From NCBI RefSeq assembly GCF_021295345.1, contig NZ_JAIMJB010000003.1, positions 1 to 64,000 on the forward strand: 64,000 bases of DNA. The letters are read 5' to 3'. This stretch comes from Motilimonas eburnea (GTDB lineage Bacteria; Pseudomonadota; Gammaproteobacteria; Enterobacterales; CBDFNC01). The notes under the pieces were generated by a model. The model worked only from the letters and a program-made list of their open reading frames with translations. It made no database searches and was not told the DNA's origin. Positions 1-44,374 of the stretch are shown piece by piece (the first letter of the stretch is position 1; each line of letters begins with the position of its first letter). The position numbers were made by a program, and so were the translations under genes.

Positions 1-86
1 CAAGCTTCTCTCTGTTACCGCTCGACTTGCATGTGTTAAGCCTGCCGCCAGCGTTCAATCTGAGCCATGATCAAACTCTTCAATTA
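1..86 (-). rRNA. rrs: 16S rRNA, 5' end (partial)
   Basis: Read on the minus strand, this is the start of bacterial 16S rRNA: the universal AGAGTTTGATCATGGCTCAG primer site is present, followed by the conserved GAACGCTGGCGGCAGGC and AACACATGCAAGTCGAGCGG blocks. The gene runs leftward out of the window, so only about the first 86 nt are here. The exact mature 5' end is set by analogy with E. coli, where it starts a few bases before TTGAAGAG. Confidence 0.97.
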
Positions 87-267
87 AAGTTTTTTTGGTC
101 CGAAGACCTGCTCAATGAATTCTGTTTTGAACCTCAAATTAATGAAGTTCGATTTGTTCTATATGAACACTCAGAAACATTGATAAATAAATCGTTTTGG
201 CGATTCGTTACCATTGCGTTGTTAGCCGTGGCTTTCAACATGAGTATTCACACAGATTGCATGATTA

Positions 268-282
268 GATTGTTAAAGAACA
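268..282 (-). promoter_or_regulatory. boxA antitermination element in rRNA leader
   Basis: The minus strand reads GTTCTTTAACAATC, close to the boxA/Nus-factor element of enterobacterial rRNA leaders (TGCTCTTTAACA). It lies about 180 nt upstream of the 16S 5' end and downstream of the promoter, as expected for an rrn leader. Such elements recruit NusB/NusE to keep rRNA transcription from terminating early. Confidence 0.8.
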
Positions 283-6758: not shown

Positions 6759-9074
6759 ATGATAAAACGGACACTTGTCATCATGGGCACCCTTTTCGCC
6801 CCAAGTGCATATGTTAACGCAGCCGAGAATAGTTTAAACGAAAGCAATGTGGTCACCATCGCCGATCTTCCTTTAACTCAACGTTGTTACGCATACGTAC
6901 CTGAAGTGATCGATGCACCTGAACAAGATCCTAGCTTAACCCCCGTTGAAGTTTACTCTGATACCACATCAAGCCAAGGCACGACTTTTGTATATCAGGG
7001 CAACGTAAAAGTCATTCAGGGCATTAAGTCACTGAGCAGCGATGAATTAACCTATAACAGTGAAACCCAAAAGGCGCAGGCAAAAGGCAACATTCGTTTC
7101 ACCGATGGCCAAGTCACTGTCAGTGGTGCCCAAATTGATGCCGATTTAAGTAATGACTCGGCCACCTCTTTTGATACCCAGTATCAGTTTCATGGTAAAG
7201 GTGGACGTGGCGACACCCAAGAATTAGAAGTGGTCGATCGTGAGCATTACAATCTGTATCAAGCTAGTTATACCTCTTGTCCACCGGGCGATAAAACGTG
7301 GGAAGTGAGAGCGAAACACTTAGAAGTAGATAATGAAGAAGAAATCGCCACAGCAAAACACGCCACCTTTAGGCTGTTTGATGTGCCTATTTTTTATTTA
7401 CCCTATTTTACCTACCCAACGGGGTCGAATCGTAAATCCGGCTTGCTGGTCCCCAGTTTTTCCAGTAGCTCAGATAACGGCATTACTTACGAGCAGCCCA
7501 TCTATTGGAACATCGCCCCCAATCATGACGCGACGCTCACATTTAAATCCATGGTTAACCGTGGCGTACAAGCCTTAGGTGAGTATCGATATTTATCGAC
7601 CACCAGTCGCGGCCAGCTGAACGCTGAGTATCTTCACAACGATAAAAAGCTTCACCAAAACCGCTACCTTTACCATTGGAAAGATAGTAGCCGTTTAGGA
7701 GAGCACTTTCGTTTCAACGGTTCCTACACCAAAGTCAGTGATGATAACTATTTTAACGATCTGGGTTCAACCGTGGGCTCGCGGACCGATAATCAACTGT
7801 TAAGAACCGCTAACGCCTCTTGGTTAGAAAAGAACTGGAATGCAGAAGTTGAAGTAAGAGATTTTCAGGTACTTGGCGGCGAGTCCCCCCACTTAGTCAT
7901 GCCAAAGCTGGCATTTAATGGTTATTACCCGACTAATTGGAATCACATTGAAGCGGATATCTTTACCGAGCTCACCCGTTTTGACCATAAAAACGATGAT
8001 GTCTACACAGGTACACGTTTGCATATCGAACCTAGGCTGATAGTACCTTTGTACACACAAGCGGCTTTTTTGAATACGGAACTGGGTTACATGTTCACTC
8101 ATTACGAACAAGACATTCCCACCACAGTGAAAGAAGCTTGGTACCGCGATCTCGATAAAACAGTGACCCGCTCATTGCCAAAGTTTTCAATGCATGGCGG
8201 CTTAAACTTTGAGCGCCAGACCCAAGTGTGGGGCAACCACTACACGCAAACCCTGATCCCACAAATAAAATACTTATATATCCCCCATCGAGATCAACGT
8301 AATATCGGCCTCTACGATACTTCCGCTTTGCAACTTGACTATTATGGCCTGTTTCGCGAACAACGCTATTCAGGTGTTGACCGTATTGCCGATGCCAATC
8401 AAATCACCCTTGGGGTGTCCACTGGCTATTTAGATGAAGATTTCAACGAACGTTTTCGTTTCGCCATTGGTCAAATGTTCTACTTTAACCAGTCCGATAC
8501 TTATCTCGTAGGGGATTTAGTCAAACAAGACAGCAACCGCTCATCCTTGGTGGCAGAAACGGATTTTAACTTCGCTGATAATTGGTATTACCATGGTGGT
8601 ATTGAGGTGAATACCGAAGATGGCGAGATCAGCAGGGGAAACAGCACCCTGGAGCGTCGTTGGGCATGGAACAAACTGCTGCAGCTCAATTACCGTTATG
8701 TTAAAGCGCCTGAGAACCCTTCTACTAACTATATTAAAGGGGGCATTAATCAGGTCGGCGTTAAAGCGGCTTGGCCGTTTAACGACCAATGGAGTGCCGT
8801 CACGAGTTATTATTACGATACCGACAATAACCGTTTTTTTGAAAGTTTATTCGGTGTCAAATATGAGGATTGTTGTTGGTCTGTTAGTTTAGTCTACGAT
8901 CAACACATCAAAACATCATACGGGCAAATAGGCGATATTAAGAACAACTATGACTTGTCCAGCGGCGTAAAACTACAAATCGAGCTAAAAGGTTTAGCCG
9001 GTTTTGGAAGCAGCGCCAGTTCAGAGTTGAATCAAGGTCTATTCAGTTACGGCCGCCCATTTGCAAATAAATAA
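6759..9074 (+). CDS. lptD: LPS-assembly outer-membrane protein LptD
   Basis: Outer-membrane beta-barrel that, with LptE, inserts lipopolysaccharide into the outer leaflet. The 771-residue product has a signal peptide (ending near NAAENS), a periplasmic OstA/LptA-like domain (about 60-190) and a C-terminal barrel. The cysteines needed for the interdomain disulfides are visible: QRCYAY near residue 45, YTSCPPG near 172 and the adjacent pair in YEDCCWSV near 708. It heads the run lptD-surA-pdxA-rsmA-apaG-apaH. SurA, next door, is the chaperone that folds LptD. Confidence 0.96.
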   Translation: MIKRTLVIMGTLFAPSAYVNAAENSLNESNVVTIADLPLTQRCYAYVPEVIDAPEQDPSLTPVEVYSDTTSSQGTTFVYQGNVKVIQGIKSLSSDELTYNSETQKAQAKGNIRFTDGQVTVSGAQIDADLSNDSATSFDTQYQFHGKGGRGDTQELEVVDREHYNLYQASYTSCPPGDKTWEVRAKHLEVDNEEEIATAKHATFRLFDVPIFYLPYFTYPTGSNRKSGLLVPSFSSSSDNGITYEQPIYWNIAPNHDATLTFKSMVNRGVQALGEYRYLSTTSRGQLNAEYLHNDKKLHQNRYLYHWKDSSRLGEHFRFNGSYTKVSDDNYFNDLGSTVGSRTDNQLLRTANASWLEKNWNAEVEVRDFQVLGGESPHLVMPKLAFNGYYPTNWNHIEADIFTELTRFDHKNDDVYTGTRLHIEPRLIVPLYTQAAFLNTELGYMFTHYEQDIPTTVKEAWYRDLDKTVTRSLPKFSMHGGLNFERQTQVWGNHYTQTLIPQIKYLYIPHRDQRNIGLYDTSALQLDYYGLFREQRYSGVDRIADANQITLGVSTGYLDEDFNERFRFAIGQMFYFNQSDTYLVGDLVKQDSNRSSLVAETDFNFADNWYYHGGIEVNTEDGEISRGNSTLERRWAWNKLLQLNYRYVKAPENPSTNYIKGGINQVGVKAAWPFNDQWSAVTSYYYDTDNNRFFESLFGVKYEDCCWSVSLVYDQHIKTSYGQIGDIKNNYDLSSGVKLQIELKGLAGFGSSASSELNQGLFSYGRPFANK

Positions 9075-9096
9075 ACATTGCTAACGAAGTAAGAAA

Positions 9097-10395
9097 ATGA
9101 TGATTAATAAATTGTTAAGCTACACGTTATCCACTTCACTGCTAATTAGCAGTTTAACCCTTAATGCTGCGCCCATTGAAATAGACAAGGTGGCCGCCAT
9201 CGCCAACCAAGATGTGATCATGCAAAGTGAAGTTGACACGTTAACTAAGCAGGTAAAACGCCAGTACCAGTCAAATCAGCAGCCGTTACCGAATGAAGGC
9301 ATTTTGCGTAAACAAATACTCGAAAAGCTGATCCAAGATAGCTTACAAGTGCAAATGGCAGAAAGACTGGGCATGAAAATCAGCGAAGCCCAGCTTGAAC
9401 AGACCATTTTAGGTATCGCTAAAGACAAAAACCAAACCTTACCTGAACTACAAGCTAGCCTTGCCGAACAAGGAATCAGTTATGCCGAATTTCGCCATTC
9501 TGTCCGTGAAGAGCTATTGATTTCGGAAGTCTCTCGTATCCAAGTAAGACGCCGTATCAACATTTCAGATCAAGAAGTGGATAACCTCATAAAAATGATG
9601 AACAACCAAGGCGGTAAACAACGCGAATATCGCATTGGCCACATCATGTTAAAACTCAGTGACGACGCCTCAGCAGACGATATCGAAACAGGCAATAACA
9701 AAGCCGAAGCCATCGTCAGCCAACTTCGCTCGGGTGCGGATTTTAAAGAAACGGCATTGGCGGAATCTCAAGGACCAAAAGCCCTCGAAGGCGGTGATTG
9801 GGGCTGGATGGGTGTTAATGATATGCCAACCCTGTTTGCAAAAGCGGTTGAAGGCGCCAATGCGAACGACATTATTGGCCCATTTAAAAGCGCCAATGGC
9901 CTACACATCATCAAGATTCTCGACGACCGAGGGCAAACCAAAGTCACCTCAACCGAAATTAACGCCCGTCATATCTTGATTAAACCATCCATCATTTTAA
10001 GTGATGCAAAAGCCAAGCAATTACTTGACCGTTACCGCGCGGATATTGTTGCTGGCCGTCAGTCTTTTTCTGAATTAGCCAAAGCACACTCAGAAGATCC
10101 TGGCTCGGCGGTAAAAGGCGGTGAACTTGGCTGGGCAGATCCAGAGCTTTATGTGCCGGCCTTTAGGGACGAGATCCTTCGCTTAGATATGCGTGAAATA
10201 AGCCAACCATTTCGCTCTACTCATGGCTGGCATTTAGTCCAAGTCATGGGCAAACGCACCACAGATGTCACCGAACAAGCCAATAAACAAAAAGCCTATC
10301 AAATTTTATACGGCCGCCGTTTTAATGAAGAAACGCAAAGCTGGCTAAATGAGCTGCGTGAAGAGGCTTACGTGAAAATCATGGAAGAGAAGTAA
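9097..10395 (+). CDS. surA: Periplasmic chaperone/peptidyl-prolyl isomerase SurA
   Basis: Periplasmic chaperone for outer-membrane proteins, 432 residues. A signal peptide (about 1-24, ending LNAAP) precedes the SurA N-domain ([18 protein letters not shown]). Two parvulin domains follow, each with the pattern [10 protein letters not shown]...GGDWGWM and NARHILIK...GGELGWAD, then a short C-terminal helix. The gene starts 22 bp after lptD and ends 2 bp before pdxA, so operon coupling is clear. Confidence 0.97.
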
Positions 10396-40596: not shown

Positions 40597-40794
40597 GCCC
40601 ATCGAGGTTATTAATTCTCGAGTAATCAAAGGTGTCTCCGATAAGCTTAGCCAAAAGCAGCGCTGGGCTTACCTAACATACCTAATCGGAGGTCTTTGCC
40701 GAGGATACAGTAAATGTAAAAACTACCACCTAGCTCAAGTAAAAGCATAATAACTGTTTATATAATAAAAAATATTCTGTTTTAGAAGGTGTCT

Positions 40795-42729
40795 ATGACG
40801 CGATATGAGCTAGTGTGTGTGCACAGTGATCCCGAGCAGTTGCTACTGCTGCAAAGCAGCCTAGCGGTACTGGGCTCGCATTTTAATTTGCGGTTATATC
40901 GAGATCACCATCATTGGCAGCAAGCTGAGCTCTCCCCTTCGGCCATTGCTCTCATTGTTGCCGAATTAACGAGCAGCACGCTAACCTTATTAAGCCAACA
41001 CGCTCAACAACACCCTGAAACCCCGATACTCGTTTTAACACCAAGTGAGCTCAGCTTATTACCTTGCTTGATCAACCAGGCTCGAGTGGACTTAGTTTTA
41101 GAAGGAAATATCAGCGATACACAGCTGCACCAAATCAATCAGTTACTTTGCCACTTTCTCAGGCAGCGTCAAGGGCTAACCCAAGAGCTGCAAACCTTGC
41201 TAGGAGGGACTTCCCCCCCTTCCCTCAATCCATCACAGCAAACTCAATTCTTGGACTATGGGCTCTATTCTGACACAGAGCTTTCTGCGCTCGTTATCAA
41301 TACCCTGTATCGTGTATTTAAAGAAAACGACGAACAGCATGTGTGCCGCAATTACAGCAAGAATCATCTGCTAACCCGCGAAGGTGAACACAATAATGCA
41401 CTCTGGTTTATTGCCAAAGGTGAGGTACAACTAAAAAAATCCACCCCAAACTCAGGCGAGCAAGAAGTCACTGTCATGCGCTCAGGCTCCATGGTAGGCG
41501 GCATGTCCTTTATCACTGGCGAGCCCGCTTTTACCACCAGTATCACCTTAACCGAAACCGAGGTGATAAAACTCGAGAAAAACCAGTTTGCGACCTTAAT
41601 GAAGTCCAATAGTGAGTTACTTGGTCCCTTTACCCACTTGTTACTGCGCAATTTTAACCGACGCTTGCAAGGGAGCATTATCACTAAGCTCAAACTGCAA
41701 TCCACTTTACAGTCCCTCGACGCCGCTCATGCCCAACTCGTGGAAACAGAAAAAATGGCGGTCTTAGGTCAGTTAGTCGCAGGCATAGCACATGAGTTAA
41801 ATAATCCCGTTGCCGCCATATTGCGTGGTACCGATACCTTAAAAACCAAGGTCCCTTTTCTGCTTGATCAAGATTTAGATATCAAAACCCGTCAACTTGG
41901 CGCCACAACCTTGAATCACGCCATGAAAATCACACCGCTATCGACAGCGCTGATCCGCCAACGCACCAAGGCAGCTATTCCCTTATTTGGCAATAATGCG
42001 CTGGCGAGAAAAGCGGTGCAAATGGAGCTTGATAGCCCAGAAAAATTCCACCAACACTTTGCCAAATCCAATCCATCGGAAATGGGTCAAAGCATAAAGA
42101 TGCTGGATAACTATTATCTGGTGGGTAATTTTCTCCGTAGTATTGATGTCTGCGCTAAACGCATCGCTGATTTAGTCAAAGGGTTAAAGCATTATGCTGG
42201 GCAAGATGTCGAGCAAGCCGTATTTGCCGATATCCATGAGGGGATAGAAGAAACCCTCGTGATTTTTGAGAACAAACTCAAAGCCTATGAAGTGATCAAA
42301 ACGTATCAATCCATCCCTTTAGTGCAGTGTCATCCAATCGAGTTACAACAAATTTGGACTAACCTGATCGCCAATGCGATTGATGCGACTCAGGGAGTAG
42401 GATCCATTCAAATATCGACATCCAGCTTAGTACGGGACCAACGCGACTATATCTGCGTCAGCGTAGAAGATAACGGACCTGGCATAGCCAAAAGCAAGCA
42501 GGCGGCGATATTTGAATTAAACTACACCACTAAACGAGAAGGTAATTTTGGTTTAGGCATAGGGTTAACCGTGTGCCAACAGATAATTAAACGCCACCAC
42601 GGAGAAATCACGGTGTCCAGCTGTACCGATGAAGAGAACCATTTTACCCGTTTCGATGTTTACCTCCCTGTTATCAATCCCATTATCAAACAAAGAGCGA
42701 GAGCCGAAAATCTACAGGAGTCACAATGA
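40795..42729 (+). CDS. Sensor histidine kinase with CRP-like domain and degenerate receiver
   Basis: A cytoplasmic kinase of about 644 residues. Residues 1-125 look like a receiver fold without the phospho-acceptor Asp. Residues about 185-285 are a cyclic-nucleotide-binding (CRP-like) domain in which the usual phosphate-binding Arg segment is replaced by PAFTTS. The H-box GIAHELNNPVAAI gives His near 332, but about 95 residues intervene before the second dimerisation helix (CAKRIADLVKGLKHYAG). The ATPase has NLIANAIDA near 522, DNGPGI and GLGIGL. AGAAGG lies 5 bp before the ATG at 40795. It overlaps its response regulator by 4 bp. The signal is unknown. Confidence 0.87.
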   Translation: MTRYELVCVHSDPEQLLLLQSSLAVLGSHFNLRLYRDHHHWQQAELSPSAIALIVAELTSSTLTLLSQHAQQHPETPILVLTPSELSLLPCLINQARVDLVLEGNISDTQLHQINQLLCHFLRQRQGLTQELQTLLGGTSPPSLNPSQQTQFLDYGLYSDTELSALVINTLYRVFKENDEQHVCRNYSKNHLLTREGEHNNALWFIAKGEVQLKKSTPNSGEQEVTVMRSGSMVGGMSFITGEPAFTTSITLTETEVIKLEKNQFATLMKSNSELLGPFTHLLLRNFNRRLQGSIITKLKLQSTLQSLDAAHAQLVETEKMAVLGQLVAGIAHELNNPVAAILRGTDTLKTKVPFLLDQDLDIKTRQLGATTLNHAMKITPLSTALIRQRTKAAIPLFGNNALARKAVQMELDSPEKFHQHFAKSNPSEMGQSIKMLDNYYLVGNFLRSIDVCAKRIADLVKGLKHYAGQDVEQAVFADIHEGIEETLVIFENKLKAYEVIKTYQSIPLVQCHPIELQQIWTNLIANAIDATQGVGSIQISTSSLVRDQRDYICVSVEDNGPGIAKSKQAAIFELNYTTKREGNFGLGIGLTVCQQIIKRHHGEITVSSCTDEENHFTRFDVYLPVINPIIKQRARAENLQESQ

Positions 42730-43226
42730 ATAAATACATCATTTTATGTGTCGATGACGAAAGAGAAGTGCTAGACAGCGTATTGGCTGACCTCGACGGG
42801 CTAAGTGAGCTGTTTGACTTGGAAGCCGCACAAAGTGTTGATGAGGCCAGAGACTTTTTAACTGAAAGCCAGCAAAACCAGCAAACCTTAGCACTGATAT
42901 TGTGTGATCACTTAATGCCCGGTACCAAAGGAGTCGATTTTTTAATTGAGCTACAGCAACAAGGGGAATACAAAGCAGCCAAAAAAGTACTACTCACTGG
43001 CCAAGCAGGGCTAGAAGACACGGTTGAAGCCCTGAATCGCGGTGGCCTCGACTTTTATATTGCAAAACCTTGGCAAGGGGATGAGCTATTCGCTCACACT
43101 CAAGAGCTATTAACCGACTACATTCTCGATAATGAAAAAGACCTGATGCGCTACGCCAGGCTGCTTGATGCAGAAAAAATATTCTCCGCTATCCACGCTC
43201 GGCGTCAAAGTATCTCAAATGATTAA
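42726..43226 (+). CDS. Receiver-only response regulator
   Basis: A 166-residue single-domain response regulator. The acidic pocket CVDDE (about 8-12), the phospho-acceptor Asp61 (LILCDHLMPG), the Thr in VLLTGQ and Lys in FYIAKPW are all present. After the receiver a short helical tail (about 130-166) has no DNA-binding or enzymatic domain. Its ATG lies in the ATGA overlap with the kinase stop, so the two are translated together and almost certainly partners. Output is unknown. Confidence 0.88.
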   Translation: MNKYIILCVDDEREVLDSVLADLDGLSELFDLEAAQSVDEARDFLTESQQNQQTLALILCDHLMPGTKGVDFLIELQQQGEYKAAKKVLLTGQAGLEDTVEALNRGGLDFYIAKPWQGDELFAHTQELLTDYILDNEKDLMRYARLLDAEKIFSAIHARRQSISND

Positions 43227-43366
43227 GGCCTGCAATGGGGCATTAAAAGTGCTGGCCACCAGCAACGAAAACATCCCACAAGGCCCCTCTTGCCATGTTA
43301 AAAAACCGATTAAACAAGTATAGTGGGCCATTGTCTCATCCGCTTCTGGTATATTTAACACCTAGC

Positions 43367-44137
43367 ATGAAACTGATTAGCCCCTTTGAAGCCGCTGAAA
43401 AGCGCTTAGAAATTCAATTTGATAGTAAGATTAACCTGCTGCGGCTACCAAGCCATTTTTGGCAGCAGCAGTTAGATTATTGCGCGGCGACCATTTTATC
43501 TCATGTCCGCGGTCAACACGTCCATGCCTATTTGTTATCGGAATCGAGCCTATTGGTATTTCAACACCGCATCATTCTCATTACCTGTGGCTTGTGCCCC
43601 CTGATTAACACGGCCTTAGCCTTGATTAACCACTTTTCAGCCGAGGCGGTCCAAGTACTGAGTTTTCAACGCCAAAAAGAGAAATATCCAGCGCAGCAAC
43701 TTAGCCAATTTAGTGACGATGCAGCTAGGCTGTCTCAACTGTTCGAAAACCTCACCATAGGCAAGCATCACCTCCATTACCAACATGCCTTGGCCAGATC
43801 CTTGGCGCCAGCGTTACATTGGCAGCTCACTCCTTTGCCTCAACATTGGCAAACTCAGTTGTTATCTTCAAGTCAAGATAAAGCCAGACTGCGCCAACTG
43901 CTGAAATTAGAGCCATTGCAAGTCGATTACTTAATTGATGACTGGCTGTTTGAGCCCGTTGGCTATTCCGCCAACGGTATCGCGCGCGCGTCTCATGGTC
44001 AGGATTACTTTTGTTTGCACTTAAGCCCTGAGCCTAGTTGTAGCACCTTGAGCCTTGAATGCTCAAACCCGGCGACATTACAGGCTCTACAAAAGCACCT
44101 AACTCGCGTTTCTGAGCTAGATCCCCATACCACTTAA
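43367..44137 (+). CDS. S-adenosylmethionine decarboxylase proenzyme, eukaryotic-type
   Basis: Pyruvoyl enzyme making decarboxylated SAM, the aminopropyl donor for spermidine. The self-processing motif LLSESSL is seen, with Ser60 (Glu59-Ser60 cleavage) corresponding to human Ser68. The acid CG in TCGLC, GYSANG (human Ser229) and the LHLSPEP His (human His243) are all conserved. With the ATG at 43367, FEAAEKRLE puts Glu8 and Glu11 at the human positions. An upstream in-frame ATG at 43295 would add 24 residues. About 256 residues, shorter than plant and animal enzymes. The bacterial SpeD type is unrelated in length and motif. No spermidine synthase gene is adjacent. Confidence 0.88.
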   Translation: MKLISPFEAAEKRLEIQFDSKINLLRLPSHFWQQQLDYCAATILSHVRGQHVHAYLLSESSLLVFQHRIILITCGLCPLINTALALINHFSAEAVQVLSFQRQKEKYPAQQLSQFSDDAARLSQLFENLTIGKHHLHYQHALARSLAPALHWQLTPLPQHWQTQLLSSSQDKARLRQLLKLEPLQVDYLIDDWLFEPVGYSANGIARASHGQDYFCLHLSPEPSCSTLSLECSNPATLQALQKHLTRVSELDPHTT

Positions 44138-44374
44138 GGTATTGATAATATTTCTAATTGCTGAACTTATTTGGGGATGAGCTTGCTCAAAATTCAGCAT
44201 TTCTTGCTCGAGTTGTTCCGCCACTTGCTGCTGCGGTGTCTTCCCCGTTTGTAATGCCAATTCAATTTCATCCGCAACCTGCCTTAAATTTGAAACCGTA
44301 CACTCATCAGCAGGAAACGCCTTTCTGATAGCATTATCTAAATGCTCAAGATCTTGTGACAGCTTTTGTTTCAT
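44117..44374 (-). CDS. DUF4404 family small protein
   Basis: An 85-residue, helix-rich, acidic protein of unknown function. The start MKQKLSQDLEHLDNAI and the C-terminal end NIINTLSGMGI fit DUF4404 as I remember it. It converges on the AdoMetDC gene, overlapping its 3' end by 21 bp. GGGGGTTAA-like purine sequence lies upstream of its ATG. The interval 44375-44726 that follows holds no gene or clear signal apart from the start region of the next CDS. Confidence 0.7.
   Translation of the reverse strand: MKQKLSQDLEHLDNAIRKAFPADECTVSNLRQVADEIELALQTGKTPQQQVAEQLEQEMLNFEQAHPQISSAIRNIINTLSGMGI

Follow-up and report, generated by a model that had tools for sequence, protein, structure and literature searches.

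The gene at 43367-44137 of the Motilimonas eburnea DNA analysed here (a stretch of 64,000 nucleotides, called the window below) encodes a eukaryotic-type (class 2) S-adenosylmethionine decarboxylase (AdoMetDC). It is an animal-type enzyme of a kind already in print, here in an unusually reduced form. We consider it likely that the protein is an active, probably putrescine-independent AdoMetDC which supplies the aminopropyl donor to a membrane-fused aminopropyltransferase, and that the triamines of this organism are made via carboxynorspermidine. The features of the gene are as follows.

43367..44137, + strand: class 2 S-adenosylmethionine decarboxylase proenzyme gene (PF01536, 121 bits; AlphaFold2 model; best PDB match human AdoMetDC)
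43367..43543, + strand: predicted beta chain, residues 1-59 (alignment to human AdoMetDC, cleavage after Glu67)
43541..43546, + strand: predicted self-cleavage site Glu59-Ser60 (human Glu67-Ser68), invariant in the 12-row and 80-row alignments
43544..44134, + strand: predicted alpha chain, residues 60-256, ending near human residue 278 (alignment to 1msv and 1jl0)
43586..43588, + strand: Cys74 codon (human Cys82; alignment)
43748..43876, + strand: residues 128-170, where the putrescine site (human D174, T176, E178) would be expected (translation; alignment row)
43967..43969, + strand: Ser201 codon (human Ser229, processing; alignment)
44018..44020, + strand: His218 codon (human His243, processing; alignment)

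Family, fold and active site

The reading frame is intact and encodes 256 amino acids. The protein matches PF01536 with 121.3 bits (gathering cut-off 22.2, E 6e-35), and searches with the SpeD models of Pfam and NCBIfam gave no match to it. The stricter NCBI equivalog TIGR00535 is not reached (74.7 bits, cut-off 233) and this rank is not claimed, because the protein is divergent and truncated. Among solved structures the top match in a sequence search is human AdoMetDC, which is also found with a profile built from 12 relatives (E 7e-48, residues 6-291). The AlphaFold2 model, based on an 80-row alignment (mean pLDDT 87.7, pTM 0.88), has the human proenzyme structures 1jl0 (Z 25.1) and 1msv (Z 24.4) as top matches, with 241-243 residues superimposed at an rmsd of 2.5-2.6 and 24% identity; Foldseek gives E 5e-16 and 8e-16, respectively. 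The two-domain fold of the human enzyme is present over nearly the whole model, which aligns to residues 4..278 of 1msv and 5..276 of 1jl0. The Pfam match together with human AdoMetDC as best match in sequence and structure therefore establishes the class 2 assignment. The earlier note had proposed a eukaryotic-type enzyme rather than SpeD, and the HMM search and structure prediction that it suggested as checks both bear this out (Z about 25 for the latter).

Class 1 SpeD (PF02675) catalyzes the same reaction, and in the structure comparison the SpeD of Thermotoga superimposes on the N-terminal half of the model (Z 8.7). However, a class 1 identity can be ruled out, as no SpeD model matches the protein and the genome contains no PF02675 protein. 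A trypanosomatid-type pair of AdoMetDC and prozyme was ruled out as well, PF01536 having a single match in the genome of M. eburnea.

All the motifs that had been listed from the sequence (FEAAEKRLE, LLSESS, TCG, GYSANG and LHLSPEP) are present. An in-frame ATG lies upstream at 43295 and was not adopted. The start at 43367 is preferred, since F7, E8 and E11 then take exactly their human numbers, as had been noticed for the two glutamates, and since the alignments to the family and to the human enzyme begin at F7/E8.

The catalytic set is completely conserved (11/11), i.e., F7, E8, E11, L65, E67, S68, C82, F223, S229, H243 and E247 in human numbers. Among these, F7, L65, E67, F223 and E247 are named as AdoMet-contacting positions in a passage of PMC3686867. 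In the numbering of the Motilimonas protein, E8, E11, S58-E59-S60, C74, F195, S201, H218 and E231 are invariant in the 12-member alignment, and E8, E11, K12, L57-S58-E59-S60-S61-L62, T73-C74-G75, F195, G199, S201, N203, H218, P221 and E231 in the 80-row alignment. Accordingly, the human positions E8, E11, E67, S68, C82, F223, S229 and H243 do not vary across the 80 rows. The position of human E247 is occupied by Gln in many relatives, so not all ligand positions are fixed in the family. Because the active-site positions are kept, cleavage at the predicted Glu59-Ser60 bond is expected, and the conserved residues suggest that the enzyme is likely active.

The protein differs from the human enzyme in its length (256 versus 334 residues) and in the site for putrescine. 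The buried acids D174 and E178 of putrescine-activated animal AdoMetDC are absent: the D174 column is a gap and the E178 column a His, and independently of any alignment residues 128-170 do not contain a single Asp or Glu. E15 and E256, which also belong to the human putrescine site, are retained. As the model stops near human residue 278, it lacks roughly the last 56 residues of the human protein, F285 and Y318 among them. The reduced putrescine-activation features that had been anticipated from the short length were thus found. T176 we take to be a further residue of the human site. A passage of PMC5201418 lists D174 and E15 among the shared residues of the putrescine site, and the PDB lists the human variants D174N, E178Q and E256Q without putrescine. 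In one relative (L013) a Glu might be assigned to position 178 by a different local alignment, but position 174 is non-acidic even then.

Loss of the site alone does not imply loss of activity, because plant AdoMetDC is likewise described as lacking it (in part of PMC3686867). Judged from its residues, the Motilimonas enzyme is probably active without putrescine. Our literature search, whose reach did not extend to Li et al. (2019, Biochem J 476:2579), found no report of such a loss in bacterial class 2 enzymes.

Polyamine enzymes in Motilimonas and related genomes

The 64-kb window contains no spermidine synthase gene near 43367-44137, in agreement with the earlier note. The note had also expected such a gene elsewhere in the genome. 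This was not confirmed: a PF01564 search of the M. eburnea genome revealed no canonical spermidine synthase (SpeE), and the canonical spermidine pathway, with AdoMetDC and SpeE in one genome, is absent. The best match is a membrane-fused aminopropyltransferase (G000:C4), which is encoded on a contig other than that of the AdoMetDC, next to a DUF350 gene:

L039 6032-6931: DUF350 gene (113.5 bits), directly upstream of the fusion
L039 6937-8649: membrane SpeE fusion gene, 570 amino acids (PF01564 and NF002956)

The C-terminal part of the fusion is a SpeE domain (residues 307-498, PF01564 124.5 bits). The protein matches NF002956, polyamine aminopropyltransferase, with 609 bits (cut-off 472) and retains GGGDG, DxxD and YH of the SpeE family. 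The only other PF01564 match in the genome, a paralogue of 245 amino acids, was rejected as a missed speE, being weak, without GGGDG and below every NCBIfam cut-off. We know of no established target of the widespread membrane-fused aminopropyltransferases. SpeE-like fusions with an N-terminal 7TM part are described in operons with DUF350 and PspA in a section of PMC11237479, where aminopropylation of other substrates is raised. The Motilimonas row resembles that arrangement in that DUF350 and the fusion are accompanied by a protein similar to the one that comes first in the G008 operon, but M. eburnea has no PspA gene directly beside the fusion. The fusion operon of G008 also contains a channel-like gene.

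For triamines a separate route is encoded. In one row, nspC (471.8 bits, cut-off 409) is adjacent to the carboxynorspermidine synthase gene (823.7 bits, cut-off 800) and comes after both this gene and one whose product most resembles L-2,4-diaminobutyrate decarboxylase (426.8 bits, below the cut-off of 900). nspC scores above its cut-off in all four Motilimonas genomes. This route does not need decarboxylated AdoMet. In addition, a PF01276 decarboxylase, which could make a diamine, is present in M. eburnea.

In a scan of a genome collection 354 stretches of bacterial contigs were found to encode class 2 relatives; among the 80 of 354 matches listed are members of Motilimonas, Shewanella, Colwellia, Thalassotalea, Psychromonas, Ferrimonas, Bdellovibrionota, Myxococcales and Acidobacteriota. 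Bacterial class 2 AdoMetDC is thus already known and not new; according to a passage of PMC10407285 it occurs in some bacteria and was acquired from eukaryotes. The family is patchy in Gammaproteobacteria, as PF01536 occurs in only 1 of 369 genomes of an even class-wide draw, which is the M. eburnea genome itself. PF01536 was found in 13 and PF02675 in another 13 of 59 genomes from the order, never both together, in counts that ignore kinship. All 26 AdoMetDC genomes carry a strong SpeE-type protein, either canonical (164-242 bits) or a long fusion (104-130 bits). A strong canonical SpeE without AdoMetDC is present in two other genomes of the 59, both with 0.3-Mb chromosomes. The long fusion (frames of 566-611 amino acids) is encoded in 16 of the 59, always together with one AdoMetDC class (10 class 2, 6 class 1).

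In G004, G029 and G050, three genomes that belong to a single genus, a class 1 SpeD relative lies about 0.3 kb from the fusion, measured between the matched stretches. In G004 it is a protein of 107 amino acids (L048 7862-8185, - strand) encoded 57 bases after the fusion gene; it scores 46.9 with TIGR03330 (cut-off 75.65) and is possibly a short dedicated SpeD.

PF01564 proteins are encoded in 50 of 50 class 2 genomes, half of which (25) have a canonical SpeE and the other 25 only the fusion; PF02675 accompanies the class 2 gene in one of the 50. nspC was detected in five of them, two Motilimonas and three Psychromonas, none with a canonical SpeE; it was found in 0 of the 25 genomes with canonical SpeE. 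The remaining 20 fusion-only genomes, mostly Shewanella, gave no nspC match and may therefore lack triamines altogether.

Putrescine site, canonical SpeE and gene history

The state of the putrescine site was compared with that of SpeE in 60 rows, i.e., the 50 class 2 genomes and 11 rows from the order, without L139. By a strict rule, which requires D174/[TS]176/E178, 27 of the 28 rows with canonical SpeE have an intact site, and 25 of the 32 fusion-only rows have lost it. Under a looser rule (both acids kept) the acids are present in 28/28 and lost in 23/32, respectively. Seven fusion-only rows, five of them named Shewanella, retain the intact site under the strict rule, and the correlation is therefore imperfect. 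SpeE status changes at least five times on the tree, which yields three independent pairs on supported branches and five in all. None of these runs opposite to the trend of joint loss. A sign test on the tree contrasts is not significant (median p 0.5), significance being out of reach with so few pairs. Relatedness accounts for much of the association. Loss of the putrescine site thus appears to track loss of canonical SpeE imperfectly, with three to five independent contrasts behind it, and the 60-genome comparison offers a natural experiment on the purpose of the putrescine site of AdoMetDC.

The class 2 AdoMetDCs of Shewanella, Colwellia, Psychromonas and Bdellovibrionota belong to the same family as that of Motilimonas, and Psychromonas and Motilimonas form one supported clade (97/91) with long branches. 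In a tree with human as the single eukaryotic row, the gammaproteobacterial rows fall among those of Bdellovibrionota, where the branch order is unsettled. In Bdellovibrionota and several marine genomes a canonical speE is present, as a rule next to the class 2 gene, and the D.T.E site is intact, whereas Motilimonas has neither. At most loci with canonical SpeE, no more than about 3 kb separates a speE gene from the class 2 gene, and usually speE comes directly after it. In the fusion-only Cognaticolwellia aestuarii (L140) a stop-riddled speE relic at 8957-9175 lies beside an intact class 2 gene. These loci fit a former amd-speE operon from which speE was lost. In Colwellia sp. RSH04 (L139 7959-8868) the class 2 gene itself is disrupted by an internal deletion and a frame change, and a speE relic follows.

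Proposed role and gene neighbourhood

In the role that we favour, the proenzyme would cleave itself at Glu59-Ser60, with Ser60 being converted to the pyruvoyl group, and the enzyme would decarboxylate AdoMet, probably without putrescine. The decarboxylated AdoMet would most likely go to the only membrane-fused SpeE-type aminopropyltransferase encoded in the genome, which would transfer the aminopropyl group to some acceptor outside ordinary spermidine synthesis, the ordinary triamines coming from the carboxynorspermidine pathway. The link between AdoMetDC and fusion is drawn from genome content and co-occurrence, because the two genes are not adjacent in any of the four Motilimonas genomes. 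As triamines have their own pathway there, Motilimonas is a clean case for another use of decarboxylated AdoMet. More tentatively, and with somewhat less confidence than doubt, we propose for Motilimonas and Psychromonas that after loss of canonical speE, with triamines made via carboxynorspermidine, the class 2 AdoMetDC lost its putrescine-sensing site and C-terminal strands, was freed from polyamine control and now serves only the membrane aminopropyltransferase, which would modify a non-polyamine membrane target.

It is unlikely, but deserves consideration, that the AdoMetDC belongs to an ordinary spermidine pathway in which the membrane fusion is the spermidine synthase of the genus and uses putrescine. 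The fusion keeps YH and DxxD, so that putrescine or another polyamine may be the acceptor; with its GGGDG and its NCBI name it would suit this function, and the PF01276 decarboxylase could supply the diamine. However, a canonical SpeE is missing, the carboxynorspermidine operon could make the triamines instead, and the AdoMetDC has lost its putrescine site. In the work of Li et al., such fusions reportedly failed to complement a spermidine synthase deletion of E. coli.

That the gene is a decaying relic of a former amd-speE operon, heading for loss and with little or no activity, is quite improbable. In all four Motilimonas genomes the gene order transporter, kinase, regulator, AdoMetDC, DUF4404, GGDEF and EpmA-like (the last presumably named correctly, judged from sequence alone) is kept. 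AdoMetDC is 31-43% identical to the M. eburnea copy, whereas the other six genes reach 48-81% (kinase, regulator and transporter 53-81%), which makes AdoMetDC the fastest-changing of the neighbourhood genes tested. This divergence, which could reflect a weakened function, and the C-terminal truncation would fit decay, as would the disrupted gene and the speE relic in the two Colwellia-like genomes. However, reading frame, catalytic residues and gene order are kept in 4/4 Motilimonas despite pairwise identities of only 34-73% (70-95% for the fusion), and this suggests that selection still acts on the active site. Least probable of all is a decarboxylase neofunctionalized for another substrate. 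Such a change is documented in PMC10407285 for class 1b SpeD, which has become arginine or ornithine decarboxylase, and would be compatible with the divergence of the Motilimonas protein. Against it, the AdoMet-contacting residues of this protein are all kept, and it is the sole AdoMetDC of a genome with an aminopropyltransferase.

Two conserved neighbours of unproven role precede the AdoMetDC gene:

40789..42729, + strand: histidine kinase with cyclic-nucleotide-binding-type domain (PF00027, PF02518; synteny)
42726..43226, + strand: response regulator receiver protein (PF00072; synteny)

The signalling pair to which the earlier note had pointed is indeed syntenic in the genus, but a functional link to AdoMetDC was not found. 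The pair is absent from five other class 2 loci (L057, L061-L064) and therefore gives no function for AdoMetDC. Taken as a whole, the earlier interpretation is partly supported. In the kinase, about 185 N-terminal residues without a Pfam match are followed by the cyclic-nucleotide-binding-type domain and the kinase core. Downstream, the DUF4404 gene (44117-44374, - strand) runs convergently to the AdoMetDC gene, with a 21-base overlap at the end of the latter; the two lie side by side in 4/4 Motilimonas. At four Psychromonas-like loci (L062 6243-6929, L063 5720-6394, L064 5999-6661 and L083 3859-4521) a small gene lies immediately upstream of the class 2 gene, and in three of the four it shows a K+-channel filter (T-L-G-F/Y-G-D).
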